Part shown: piece after piece, positions 5,226 to 59,020 of the stretch
How positions within the stretch are numbered: the first letter of the stretch is position 1
Layout: every line of letters begins with the position of its first letter
Source of the DNA: Pseudomonas nunensis
GTDB lineage: Bacteria > Pseudomonadota > Gammaproteobacteria > Pseudomonadales > Pseudomonadaceae
DNA: 64,000 nt
Assembly: GCF_024296925.1 (NCBI RefSeq)
Contig: NZ_CP101125.1
Location: 6,636,501 to 6,700,500, forward strand
Reading direction: 5' to 3'
Position numbers and translations under genes: made by a program
Notes under the pieces: model-generated
What the model saw: the letters and a program-made list of their open reading frames with translations, nothing else
Told to the model about the DNA's origin: nothing
Database searches by the model: none

Positions 5226-6431
5226 TCACCCGACCGACAGCACCCGGTGACGCCGGGTAATCAGCGCATTCAGGCCGATACCGAAGGCGCTTAACAGGAG
5301 AAAACTGAGGGCCAGGGTCGTCTGCAAGTCGGTGCTGCTCAGGTTGATCAAAGCGCTGATCAGCCCGCCGAAGATGAACACCAGCGTGTTGCCCGCTGCC
5401 GCCGACGTGCCTGCCTTGTCCGGAAACACCTCCATGGCTTTGGAGGTCGCGACAGGGCGGGCAATGGTGGTGCCAGCCGTGCAGATGATCATCGGGACCA
5501 ACACGGTCAGGGTCGAAAGCCCCAGCCATGTTGAAAGCATGAGCATCATCAGGCCCGCAAAGAAGATCAGGCCCAGGCCCACGATGATTTGTGTGTTGGG
5601 GGCGATCCTGCCGCCGATAAGCCGGGCGATGATGCCGCCGATGATGTACGCCAAGCCGTAGAGTAGCAGCGTCAGCGAGAACGCATAGGGCGAGAGCTGC
5701 AACTGGTCCATGAAGATCAACGGCGAAATGACAATGAAAGAGAAATGGCAGGCGAAGGCAATCGAGGCAATCAGCCAATAGCCCAGAAAACCGGCATCGC
5801 GGTAGACCACGCGGTATGACTGGACGATGCCCTGGCGTATGACGTTGGTCGGGCGCTGGTTTTCCAGAAAGAAGCACGCTTTCAGGAACACGGCGCCAGC
5901 CAGCGCGATAAAGGCCACAAAGCTGCCGGGCCAGTCCAAGGCTTGTTGCAGCAAGGTCCCGGCCAGGGGCGAAATGGAAATGAAGATCCCACTGGCCGTG
6001 ACCATGAGAATCCTCAGGCGGTCCCGCTCCTTGCCTTCGAACAGGTCTTGAACCAAGGCTTGAGTGAGCACAAAACAACCGCAGCCAATGGCCTGGACCA
6101 GCCGGAACACCAGGAACCAGGGATACTCGGTGGATAACAGGCAACCCGTCGCGCCGATGATCGACACCGCCATGCCCGCCAGCAGCAGCCCTTTACGTCC
6201 GATGCGGTCCGACAGCGGCCCGATCAACAGTTGGGACACGGAGATACCGACGGCGAACAGGCTGATGGAAAACGCGATGTCCGCGGGGGTGGTCCGAAAA
6301 TGTTCCGCCAGTGCCGGAAAAGAAGGCAGCAGGACATCCAGCGGAAAGACCCCAAGCAACACCATGGTCATCAGCAGGATGACGGCGGCACGGCGTTTTT
6401 TGAGGCTGACAGCCGGTTTTCCTTCATCCAT
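5226..6431 (-). CDS. MFS drug-resistance transporter, Bcr/CflA family (exporter of the accessory operon)
   Basis: A 401-residue inner-membrane protein with about twelve hydrophobic segments. The loop GPLSDRIGRKGLLLAG is MFS motif A, and the N-terminus FPLDVLLPSFPALAEHF is typical of Bcr/CflA proton antiporters. The ATG at 6431 overlaps the stop of the diiron oxygenase gene by eight bases (ATGGATGA), with AGGA seven bases upstream, so the two are translationally coupled. In this setting it most likely exports the product of the peptide, dehydrogenase and oxygenase genes, or confers self-immunity; that is inference. It could also be a general efflux pump that was captured by the operon. Confidence 0.85.
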   Translation of the reverse strand: MDEGKPAVSLKKRRAAVILLMTMVLLGVFPLDVLLPSFPALAEHFRTTPADIAFSISLFAVGISVSQLLIGPLSDRIGRKGLLLAGMAVSIIGATGCLLSTEYPWFLVFRLVQAIGCGCFVLTQALVQDLFEGKERDRLRILMVTASGIFISISPLAGTLLQQALDWPGSFVAFIALAGAVFLKACFFLENQRPTNVIRQGIVQSYRVVYRDAGFLGYWLIASIAFACHFSFIVISPLIFMDQLQLSPYAFSLTLLLYGLAYIIGGIIARLIGGRIAPNTQIIVGLGLIFFAGLMMLMLSTWLGLSTLTVLVPMIICTAGTTIARPVATSKAMEVFPDKAGTSAAAGNTLVFIFGGLISALINLSSTDLQTTLALSFLLLSAFGIGLNALITRRHRVLSVG

Positions 6432-7389
6432 CGACAAGTCCTGCCTGCATGAAAAGTTGCTGATTGCTGCGCAGGTCGAAGAACCCGGCATTGCGTAAGG
6501 CCTGGAGCGTAGCACCCGCCCCTGAGCGAGTCCGCTGGACTACGGCTGGCGAACCTGCCAGCCCGCCAAGAATCTCAGCAACACAGGTGCTATTCAGCCC
6601 CGCGCTGTTCAGGCTTTCCTTGAGCCAGCGCTCATCGACTTCAAAGAACACCAGAATGATCTCCACCAGCCATTTGGCGGCGAACGTGCGTTGACTGCTG
6701 GTCAGGGTCAGCCATAGATAATGGAATACCTCTGAGAAATAGCGACTGTGACGCGCCTCGTCAGTGAGGTGGTCCCTGAGCATTTCCTGGACGCTGGACA
6801 CCAGAGTGTCGCGACAAACCTCGAGCAGTTCCCGGGCGATGATCGTCTCCGAGACGAAGCCGACCAGAAACCAGGCCAGCGTCTTGTACCGGTCCGGGGT
6901 TTGCTCGAGCAGGGCGTTCAACCGGGTTATCCGGTGTGGCATCACCGGACGCTGGGTGATGCCGTAATGACTGGCAATCTGCTCGGCGAGGCTGTTGGAA
7001 AACAGCGCGTGAAAACCCTCGTCGGTGTAGAGCTGCAAAGCGGCGGTTTTCATTCGCTGCGGAATGCTGATCCCCAGTTCACCGTGGGCGATGGTTTCCA
7101 CCGAGCGGTTGACGATGCGGTGCTCCAGCAGCGTGGTGTAGTCGAGGAAATACACCAGGTGATTGGCCGATAAACGATGGATGACCGGTTGACCTGCTGC
7201 CTTGATACTCGGGTGGCTCAGATAGGGCAGAAAGGCTGGGGGGAACCAGTGTCGCGTTTCCAATTGCTGTTCCAGGTCTGAAGGCAACAGGTAGGAGTGT
7301 TCGCTGGCCCGGACCGAGGCTCGGGTATTCCAGTCGCTCAGGGTGAAACGCTGGGCCCAGAAATCCGGGAGAGAGGAGGCGCTGGTCAT
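6424..7389 (-). CDS. AurF-type diiron oxygenase (p-aminobenzoate N-oxygenase-like)
   Basis: A 321-residue soluble, all-helical protein. Seven candidate diiron ligands lie at E89, E124, H127, E181, H207, E211 and H214; the spacing 35-3-54-26-4-3 nearly reproduces that of AurF (35-3-57-27-4-3 from E101 to H230, from memory). The two E-x-x-H motifs read DEGFH and DEARH. AurF relatives oxidise amines to hydroxylamine, nitroso or nitro groups with O2. The ATG at 7389 overlaps the SagB-type gene stop (ATGA), so both are co-translated. The substrate is unknown; the adjacent peptide gene suggests a peptide or peptide-derived amine. A different C-H or N oxidation is possible for this superfamily. Confidence 0.8.
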   Translation of the reverse strand: MTSASSLPDFWAQRFTLSDWNTRASVRASEHSYLLPSDLEQQLETRHWFPPAFLPYLSHPSIKAAGQPVIHRLSANHLVYFLDYTTLLEHRIVNRSVETIAHGELGISIPQRMKTAALQLYTDEGFHALFSNSLAEQIASHYGITQRPVMPHRITRLNALLEQTPDRYKTLAWFLVGFVSETIIARELLEVCRDTLVSSVQEMLRDHLTDEARHSRYFSEVFHYLWLTLTSSQRTFAAKWLVEIILVFFEVDERWLKESLNSAGLNSTCVAEILGGLAGSPAVVQRTRSGAGATLQALRNAGFFDLRSNQQLFMQAGLVDG

Positions 7390-8492
7390 TGTGGCGGGCC
7401 CTCGTTCAGCAGCGCTTTCAATTCCTTGCACATCGCTTGCCCGTCGCTCAGGCCGCAGCCGACAAAAAACAGCGGTTGTTCCGCGCTGTCCTCAAGCCCT
7501 AGTAGGGTTTCAACCTGATCGTCCGTGAGCGCTCCCGTCAGCCAGGTGCCCAGGCCCAGTGCGGTGGCTACCAGTTGGAAGGTCTGGGAAATATGACCCG
7601 CCTCGACGTAGGCCATCCGGTAAGCCCGGGAGTGTTGGTATTTCCACCACAACTTGTCGAACCGTGCGGTGATGAACAGGCCGACGGGCAGGTTGTTGAT
7701 GAAATGTTGCCCACACAGCAACTGGCCCAAGGGCGAGGTTGGCAGCGTGCTGACGAAGCTCAACGCATGATCAGCCGGATGGTAGGCATAGAGCCCAGGC
7801 TCCAGGCCGCTGACGTTTTGTACATGCAGGAAACCTTCACAGGCATTCAAACCTCCGCCCGAAGGGCTGCTGCGGCGTGCGGTCAAACCTTCGGCGACCG
7901 TCTCGTCGATATCGTCCTCGCGCTCCTTCAGGTAGCCGAGAGACAGATAGAGCAACGTACTGATATCGCCGAGGGACACTGCTGCGCCGGTGAAAGAGCG
8001 GCAGGTCTTACGCTTCACCAGCGCATCGGCCAAGCTGTCGGCCGGTAACCCTGCGGGCGCGGGCAGGCTGATCAGCTCGCTGGTCGGCCGGTGCACGAAA
8101 TTGGTGTCAGGTGCACTGGAGGTCAATACGTCGTTGCAATGGTCCAGATAATGTCTCGACCATTCATAAATATTCTGTGGGGTATATTCGCAAGGTATGT
8201 TCTTGGTGCCGATGTGAAATATCTTTGATAGTTCATCCCAGCCCCATACGTTAGTGTTTTGTATTGAAGTTGTCAGTATTCCAGTGTTCAGGAATTGAGT
8301 GTCTATTATATTGAGAGTATCGAACGATTCAGGATTGTCGATCAGTTGTGCAAGTCGGGTTGAATACTCAAGATTCAGTTCGAATTGTTTGTGGCTTCGG
8401 TAATCCCAGACGATTTGGCCGGGCGTGCGAGGCAGTATGAATAGATGCGGGTTTATATGCATGGCGGGGCGGTTCACTCTGGACTGGGCCAT
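7386..8492 (-). CDS. SagB-type FMN-dependent dehydrogenase (nitroreductase fold)
   Basis: About 368 residues. The N-terminal part carries the SagB signature W-x-W-D...FHIGT (residues 83-96). The nitroreductase domain follows: RKTCRSFTG (161-169), RRSSPSGGGLNACEGF (206-221), a WKYQHSRAYR segment with a Lys-Tyr pair at 284-285 matching the catalytic Lys-Tyr of McbC, and EAGHISQTFQLVATALGLG. SagB/McbC enzymes oxidise peptide azolines to azoles with FMN. Here no YcaO cyclodehydratase accompanies it, so the substrate may differ. The start is uncertain: ATG 8492 has no clear ribosome site, and ATG 8462 or TTG 8531 are alternatives. Bases 8100-8420, coding its N-terminal domain, are visibly AT-rich against the rest of the gene. 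Confidence 0.85.
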   Translation of the reverse strand: MAQSRVNRPAMHINPHLFILPRTPGQIVWDYRSHKQFELNLEYSTRLAQLIDNPESFDTLNIIDTQFLNTGILTTSIQNTNVWGWDELSKIFHIGTKNIPCEYTPQNIYEWSRHYLDHCNDVLTSSAPDTNFVHRPTSELISLPAPAGLPADSLADALVKRKTCRSFTGAAVSLGDISTLLYLSLGYLKEREDDIDETVAEGLTARRSSPSGGGLNACEGFLHVQNVSGLEPGLYAYHPADHALSFVSTLPTSPLGQLLCGQHFINNLPVGLFITARFDKLWWKYQHSRAYRMAYVEAGHISQTFQLVATALGLGTWLTGALTDDQVETLLGLEDSAEQPLFFVGCGLSDGQAMCKELKALLNEGPPQ

Positions 8493-8497
8493 AGAAA

Positions 8498-8526
8498 ACG
8501 CTGGGTAAGCCGGCACTCCCCAGCGT
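8498..8526 (-). terminator. Attenuator-like hairpin between peptide gene and SagB-type gene
   Basis: On the transcript, ACGCUGGG pairs with CCCAGCGU (8-bp perfect stem, 13-base loop) and is followed by UUUUCU. It starts ten bases after the peptide stop and ends just before the ATG at 8492. Such partial terminators lower enzyme expression relative to precursor peptide in many peptide-product operons; that role is inferred here. Confidence 0.6.
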
Positions 8527-8535
8527 CTCAATTAC

Positions 8536-8607
8536 TTAGCGGGCTTTGGGTGCGACCAGAAAAGCCAGGTTAGCGATTTTGTTGGTTTCCAGAGTAATTG
8601 CTTTCAT
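8536..8607 (-). CDS. 23-residue peptide, candidate precursor of a modified peptide product
   Basis: An ATG at 8607, with a strong AAGGAG seven bases upstream, opens a 23-codon frame starting MKAITLETNK and ending FLVAPKAR before TAA. It has no Cys, Ser, Trp, Tyr or Gly; possible modification sites are Thr5, Thr8, Asn9, Asn13, Pro20, the lysines and the terminal Arg. It is first in an operon with flavin dehydrogenase, diiron oxygenase and exporter genes and is separated from them by an attenuator-like hairpin, the usual plan for a ribosomally made precursor. I recognise no known precursor family. Alternatives are a regulatory leader peptide or a chance ORF; the good ribosome site and promoter argue against chance. 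Confidence 0.65.
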   Translation of the reverse strand: MKAITLETNKIANLAFLVAPKAR

Positions 8608-8659
8608 GTGTTGAACTCCTTGTAAGTGATAGTGAGTGCCACTCCTTGGTGACAACTCA

Positions 8660-8687
8660 ATCATAGTTTGTAATGAGTTCTTATCAA
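8660..8687 (-). promoter_or_regulatory. Sigma-70 promoter of the peptide operon
   Basis: On the minus strand TTGATA (8687-8682) and TATGAT (8665-8660) are 16 bases apart, close to consensus and in an AT-rich patch. The expected start near 8653 gives a leader of about 46 bases, which carries AAGGAGT twice, the second serving the 23-codon gene. Confidence 0.7.
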
Positions 8688-58782: not shown

Positions 58783-58848
58783 AGTGAGTCTCCGTGCATG
58801 GTTGAAGCTGGCCCATTCGGTTTCCAGGCGAAGGGGTGGCAGCTGTAC

Positions 58849-59020
58849 GCGGCTGGAAACCCGGGGTAACGGAGAAACCCGGCAGACATTTAAGTCTCCC
58901 GCGCACAGCCGCCATAACGGAGTGCACACAATAAAGGTGCGCAAGCATACGTTATGAAGGACGCTTTTGCGCCCCGTTACTCTCGGGGTTTCCAGCCCCG
59001 ATCGCTGAATTGTCAGCGAC
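58849..59020 (-). promoter_or_regulatory. Highly structured leader upstream of the DUF6124 gene
   Basis: On the minus-strand transcript GGCUGGAAACCC (58996-58985) pairs exactly with GGGUUUCCAGCC (58862-58851), extended by GUAACGG with CCGUUAC. Inside are CAUAACG/CGUUAUG (7 bp) and AGAC/GUCU helices, and before it CGCUGA-CAAU-UCAGCG. Together they form a compact branched fold of about 170 bases ending about 65 bases before the ATG. Promoter, riboswitch-like or RNA-stability role unknown. Confidence 0.6.

Follow-up and report, generated by a model that had tools for sequence, protein, structure and literature searches.

Biosynthesis of pyrroloquinoline quinone (PQQ) employs a precursor of 22-24 amino acids (aa), PqqA, together with the radical-SAM enzyme PqqE and PqqD. 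Azolines formed by YcaO enzymes are the substrates of ThcOx and the other cyanobactin azoline oxidases and of McbC. AurF and CmlI are arylamine N-oxygenases, for which PMC13108848 states a set of three histidine and four carboxylate diiron ligands (3H/4C). The nearest known systems are the pfl/pos clusters of Pseudomonas, represented by PflD, a fusion of an MNIO and a nitroreductase, and by Os1348-1351 of strain Os17 (PMC12636437, PMC7726476). According to PMC12636437, the nitroreductase domain of PflD converts Phe to Z-dehydroPhe, and the Asp that follows is hydroxylated by the iron domain; the authors regard YcaO-free nitroreductases in clusters of this sort as rare and uncharacterised and suggest that others may form dehydroamino acids. 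In this study, we analyzed a stretch of 64,000 nucleotides of the Pseudomonas nunensis chromosome (NZ_CP101125.1; hereafter the window), which carries an operon of a 23-codon gene, a SagB-like dehydrogenase gene, an AurF-like diiron oxygenase gene and an exporter gene. We read this operon as a YcaO-free pathway like those of ribosomally synthesised and post-translationally modified peptides (RiPPs), in which the peptide would be the precursor, the SagB-like enzyme would oxidise it, the AurF-like enzyme would oxygenate it and a small product would be exported; we give this reading a probability of roughly 65%. The literature searched gave no description of this operon and no paper naming SagB together with AurF, in a search that did not extend to preprints not deposited in PMC or to the majority of subscription journals.

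Results

The four genes were confirmed where an earlier note, made from the DNA letters, had placed them, and lie on the minus strand. The features of the operon are as follows.

8687-8660, minus strand: promoter-like site TTGATA-N16-TATGAT, sigma-70-like (10/12 matches)
8636-8654, minus strand: inverted repeat (TGTCACC-AAGGA-GTGGCAC), located 3' of the -10 box and 5' of the ribosome site
8607-8536, minus strand: 23-codon gene of the putative precursor peptide, MKAITLETNKIANLAFLVAPKAR, stop TAA
8529-8495, minus strand: RNA hairpin directly 3' of the peptide stop (folding energy, covariation)
8462-7386, minus strand: SagB-like dehydrogenase dependent on flavin mononucleotide (FMN), 358 aa, start revised from 8492
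7389-6424, minus strand: AurF-like diiron oxygenase, 321 aa (family match, seven ligand residues)
6431-5226, minus strand: major facilitator superfamily (MFS) exporter, Bcr/CflA-like, 401 aa (family match)

An AAGGAG ribosome site lies 8 bases upstream of the peptide ATG, and the overlaps noted earlier are present, ATGA between the SagB-like and AurF-like genes and ATGGATGA between the AurF-like gene and the exporter.

The 23-codon gene is genuine. Peptide, SagB, AurF and MFS genes stood together in 89/89 loci of a first set (L001 and L003-L090 of our numbering; L002, a distant AurF elsewhere in the genome of the window, was dropped), which reduce to 70 distinct peptide regions because some strains were entered twice from two collections. 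The peptide was also found in 18/20 more distant loci (L091-L110), and the earlier note's own ground for abandoning the idea, SagB-AurF pairs that widely lack the small gene, was thus not encountered. As for the two exceptions, the SagB and peptide genes of L097 sit at the opposite end of the same contig (L149), and L098 lacks SagB and has a broken AurF. In L097/L149 (G188 contig 6, 50,911 bases) the operon spans the contig ends, as in a circular element; a second operon copy with AurF in two pieces (L142) lies on another contig of that genome. Among 59 distinct open reading frames (ORFs), pN was 0.116 and pS 0.315 (pN/pS 0.37), and Glu7, Ala12, Asn13 and Leu14 were invariant. Mean pairwise identity over 59 loci was 80% for the peptide (lowest pair 30%), 71% for SagB, 68% for AurF and 65% for MFS. 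The locus thus encodes a peptide under coding selection that adjoins modifying enzymes, as is expected of a RiPP precursor, and its strong conservation next to the enzymes makes it probable that the peptide is their substrate.

The same alignment bears on azoline chemistry, which the earlier note had named for SagB enzymes. If a YcaO protein encoded elsewhere made azolines, SagB could oxidise them, and the genome does hold one YcaO family gene, but this gene is a 736-aa frame ~336 kb away. No YcaO was found among the operon and neighbour genes, which sets the locus apart from thiazole/oxazole-modified microcins (TOMMs). The conserved Cys, Ser or Thr core of TOMM and linear azol(in)e peptides was likewise absent: no Cys, Ser or Thr was invariant in the position table of the 59 ORFs, the window peptide has neither Cys nor Ser, and its Thr5 and Thr8 vary among relatives. 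Azoline chemistry is rejected on these two grounds, and we consider an azol(in)e product extremely improbable.

The operon occurs in many soil pseudomonads, and all 59 loci obtained from genome contigs were Pseudomonas. The co-occurrence check suggested in the earlier note gave a clear answer: in a genus sample of 298 genomes, with E-values up to 1e-30 for AurF-like and up to 1e-40 for SagB-like proteins, the former were found in 83 genomes, the latter in 91 and both in 81, leaving 10 genomes with SagB only and 2 with AurF only, in both of which the locus is damaged. SagB was found in 9/198 family, 7/293 order and 7/378 phylum genomes (mostly Pseudomonas in the phylum sample). The AurF profile matched 2/369 genomes of the class sample, the own genome and G514. 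The G514 gene, which adjoins an NRPS-like protein, was judged unrelated to the operon. In another gammaproteobacterium (L135 7049-8041, reverse strand), an AurF-like gene lies by an NRPS-like (nonribosomal peptide synthetase) adenylation and carrier protein.

Asn13 of the peptide tracks the presence of AurF. The motif [IL]AN occurs in 63/63 distinct peptides tabulated beside an AurF gene and in 0/11 peptides of AurF-less operons that keep a SagB gene (shortened in L147). L106 and L148, with broken SagB, were dropped from the 63 (L106 has IAN), and L150 was not among the counted rows. In a tree of 25 SagB proteins, those of L138-L141 form one clade (100/100) inside the AurF-bearing ones (94/98). 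The Asn position in their peptides is Ala, Ala, Gly or His, and the Glu is retained. Because this clade nests within AurF-bearing SagBs, a single loss of AurF is probable, with replacement of the Asn afterwards. The co-occurrence of peptide, SagB and AurF supports the earlier proposal (peptide as substrate or scaffold) as far as comparative genomics goes, and an Asn that follows AurF suits the peptide as a substrate. Amine N-oxygenation, also named there for AurF enzymes, was not supported, the tracking residue being Asn and not Lys.

The variant operons are the strongest evidence. Relatives in other genera retain a tiny peptide, SagB and an exporter, and have AurF dropped or replaced. In L137, from another genus of the family, MIKTIYESKQLANWTAISTPTKG is followed by SagB, AurF and MFS and then by a GNAT gene. 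L138, L139, L140 and L141 occupy the rlmI/ilvD site with peptide, SagB and MFS and without AurF there; no AurF was found at E 1e-30 elsewhere in these genomes. The four loci encode, in this order, MKTVILESKELAAFSLIGMPK, MNAIVLESKALAAFALIGMPK, MEKINLEHKTSVGFHVMLGTSK (with an uncertain start) and MKKVQLEKNLAVHHHAMLSTPK as peptides. L143, L144 and L147 encode peptides of 55-58 residues with SNDAY and a second gene, which in L143 is a carbamoyltransferase (Pfam, E 5e-53); L145 and L146 encode peptides of 33-34 residues with SN[DN]AY in a similar operon with one more gene. L144-L147 were read as reverse complement, and the carbamoyltransferase identity rests on L143. In L132 (6908-8742), assigned to Sinobacterium caligoides through the 100% identity of its SagB (P0121), the peptide MKKVEVEMKKFCALMPVMKKSNVETKKFCALMPVMQKK consists of two copies of one segment and is followed by a terminator-like hairpin, SagB and a LysE-type exporter. 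The Maritalea plasmid pHL2708X3 (L190 4618-7035) carries an unannotated 25-residue peptide, MKKVTRTFPNKEKLASFVLDVNGVC, with hairpin, SagB and MFS. The variants have in common SagB, an exporter, the hairpin and a peptide start of the type MKx[IV]x[LMIV][EQ], which is only weakly kept in Maritalea.

A second type of SagB operon with a tiny peptide, which includes an MFS exporter, is represented in Pseudomonas by L143-L147 and L189. L189 (MT837218.1), filed as a bacteriophage from human faeces, carries the Pseudomonas carbamoyltransferase-type operon; the entry, an unverified scaffold and probably misfiled bacterial DNA, does not count as evidence for a phage system. No convincing tiny peptide was seen near SagB in L161 and L162, phylum-sample matches outside Pseudomonas, and no convincing partner peptide near the more distant SagB-like genes of L133 and L134; a distant blastn search of the operon against plasmids gave no match. 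SagB-like domains were also seen in frames of 655-665 aa in the same genus (G083, G107, G182, G219, G079 and G061); these weak profile matches are possibly the MNIO-nitroreductase fusion of pfl/pos clusters.

The variants also bear on the scaffold half of the earlier proposal, in which building blocks are added to the peptide and then released; a role of this kind is suspected for tiny ORFs on which the formation of small amino-acid products depends. According to PMC8064604, the FVG cluster gvg, also from Pseudomonas, combines a carbamoyltransferase and LysE transporters with two small ORFs of <50 aa. Among the operon relatives, L143 has a carbamoyltransferase and L132 a LysE-type exporter, and MFS and LysE exporters suit small molecules. 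The operon, however, has no ligase, aminotransferase or tRNA-dependent adding enzyme, and the conservation of the peptide spans its middle and tracks AurF instead of being confined to the C-terminus. We consider a scaffold unlikely. The peptide might instead be exported unmodified or lightly modified, as a signal or bacteriocin, with the enzymes serving a separate small-molecule step. Its whole sequence is highly identical in the Pseudomonas set, the C-terminal LVAPKAR included, but the transporters are MFS or LysE-type, no peptide exporter or protease was found, and the enzyme-linked changes lie inside the peptide, which makes this explanation very unlikely.

The hairpin at 8529-8495 has a folding energy of -21.1 kcal/mol (z -3.17). 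In its ten-pair stem, 26 cells were changed on both sides in 28 relatives (28/43 listed hairpin references were taken) against 6.7 in shuffles, and 0/500 shuffles reached 26; the innermost pair forms in 10/28 aligned relatives. Six more distant operons have a hairpin at the same place (z -4.8 to -0.7), that of L139 being no better than shuffles. Rfam gave nothing at the hairpin at gathering score. We read the hairpin as probably serving precursor excess over the enzymes or mRNA stability. A short first ORF with a conserved hairpin directly 3' would also fit a leader or attenuator acting through the hairpin, with the enzymes using another substrate. The selection on the ORF is at the amino-acid level, though, and no single-residue run occurs; moreover, the peptide varies with the enzyme set, and among relatives it can be as long as 55-58 residues or, in one case, doubled. 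A leader is therefore quite unlikely.

Both enzymes of the proposed peptide pathway match their families. The conserved start of SagB is ATG 8462 (MHINP...), as in relatives, and not ATG 8492. The protein matches PF00881 (E 5e-19) and the SagB model TIGR03605 (E 1.4e-36), passing the curated cut-off of the latter (domain score 125.7 bits against 78.4). The best NCBIfam match of its clade is TIGR04511, 'putative peptide maturation dehydrogenase' (138-166 bits in 7/7 proteins, 166.3 for the window protein), although 7/7 stay below the 240-bit cut-off. An N-terminal domain (about residues 1-110) precedes the C-terminal nitroreductase fold. In a model, this part is beta-beta-beta-alpha-alpha and aligns with a peptide-clamp part of ThcOx from ThcOx residue 117. 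The AurF-like protein matches PF11583 (E 9e-18) and has the family's fold, and its seven diiron ligands are intact (E89, E124, H127, E181, H207, E211 and H214); it scores 51.5 bits against the 4-aminobenzoate N-oxygenase model NF045603, below the cut-off of 620. CylC-like chlorination was set aside because the full 3H/4C set is kept.

As to the remaining features, the -10 region of the sigma-70-like site is conserved in the upstream alignment of 59 loci, but the promoter scan alone was not above chance (2 sites against 1.6 in shuffles). The inverted repeat, whose arms recur upstream in many relatives, is a possible operator or 5'-UTR (untranslated region) hairpin. The exporter matches MFS_1 (E 4e-42), but its score against the Bcr/CflA model TIGR00710 (192.7 bits) misses the cut-off of 200.9, so 'Bcr/CflA-like' is a safer label than Bcr/CflA. 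An rlmI-like gene and ilvD flank the operon in the window, and rlmI/ilvD are the flanks in 72/87 loci examined. Elsewhere in the window, positions 58832-58919 (minus strand) match the Rfam C4 antisense RNA, a family known from phages, at 56.9 bits (cut-off 45); no tRNA was found in the 64 kb.

Discussion

We propose that the N-terminal MKxIxLE is the recognition part of the peptide and that the following residues are the core. The SagB N-terminal domain would hold the recognition part, and we lean towards such binding. Since SagB is common to all operon types and the peptide N-terminus is shared, SagB would bind this end and act first. Its FMN would take two electrons from the core, the likeliest outcome being Calpha-Cbeta desaturation near position 14, a position held by Leu or, in certain relatives, by Trp, Phe or Met. 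By analogy, PflD is the best precedent for this step, and we put desaturation forward only tentatively. The AurF-like 3-His/4-Glu site would then hydroxylate or N-oxygenate at or next to Asn13, an assignment that is plausible but falls short of being likely. Housekeeping proteases would trim the peptide, the MFS protein would export the small product, and the hairpin would hold the precursor in excess over the enzymes.

Gene content and order, coding conservation, the catalytic residues, the covarying hairpin and the link of Asn13 to AurF were observed, and all of the chemistry is inferred. Several points weigh against this proposal. A Pfam search with N-terminal SagB fragments of 10 proteins found no PqqD or RRE (one chance DUF match, E 0.08), and hhalign of the N-terminal SagB profile against ~24 PqqD domains, run without secondary structure, gave probabilities near 0. 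The part of ThcOx that aligns is its second clamp domain; this domain is buried in ThcOx, and the authors of the ThcOx study regard it as inactive for that reason (PMC5108345). The operon holds no protease gene, and the enzymes could act at residues other than those proposed. The joint loss of AurF and Asn amounts to a single evolutionary event, seen in a tree whose 25 rows we chose ourselves. L148 keeps IAN without AurF, although only 132 codons of its SagB remain.

On the comparative evidence, the earlier interpretation is partly supported. If the peptide is the substrate, the operon would be an undescribed kind of peptide natural-product pathway. It may even represent a new RiPP class, a suggestion that we make with considerable reserve. 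Here a free-standing, YcaO-free SagB would read precursors of just 21-26 residues (38 where there are two cores, and 55-58 in a single branch), with a second enzyme swapped by lineage (AurF, carbamoyltransferase or none). Its AurF, acting on the Asn of I-A-N, would become the first known case in the AurF family of a ferritin-like diiron oxygenase that oxidises a ribosomal peptide. SagB would then have a role apart from azoles, the AurF family would gain a peptide substrate, and a group of very small precursor genes that lack annotation and are overlooked by genome-mining tools would come within reach. Operons with AurF and operons lacking it, found at the same site in the chromosome, offer a natural experiment on one peptide residue as the AurF target.

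In comparison with known systems, the PQQ pathway shares the precursor size and small-molecule output, whereas the window operon has neither a radical-SAM PqqE nor PqqD. ThcOx, the cyanobactin azoline oxidases and McbC depend on YcaO products, unlike the window operon with its lack of YcaO and of conserved Cys, Ser and Thr. AurF and CmlI have the same fold and all seven diiron ligands, but identity is ~20% and the window enzyme is tied to a peptide instead of a polyketide/NRPS pathway. The gvg cluster has in common with the operon relatives tiny ORFs, a carbamoyltransferase and LysE exporters in pseudomonads, while neither SagB nor AurF is reported for it in the accessible text of PMC8064604. 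The statement in the earlier note that no such set without YcaO, lanthionine, radical-SAM or ThiF-like enzymes had been described was nearly right, except that the pfl/pos clusters, which belong to the same genus and contain no protease gene, already pair a YcaO-free nitroreductase-family dehydrogenase of the SagB type with a non-haem iron hydroxylase to modify a ribosomal peptide (PMC12636437). The pfl/pos clusters feature an 85-aa precursor with a folded leader (Os17), a HEXXH enzyme, a GNAT and the MNIO fusion (PMC12636437, PMC7726476). The MNIO fusion, HEXXH enzyme and long folded leader are absent from the window operon, which has instead a 23-aa peptide, a separate SagB-like protein of 358 aa, an AurF-type ferritin-like diiron enzyme and an MFS exporter.

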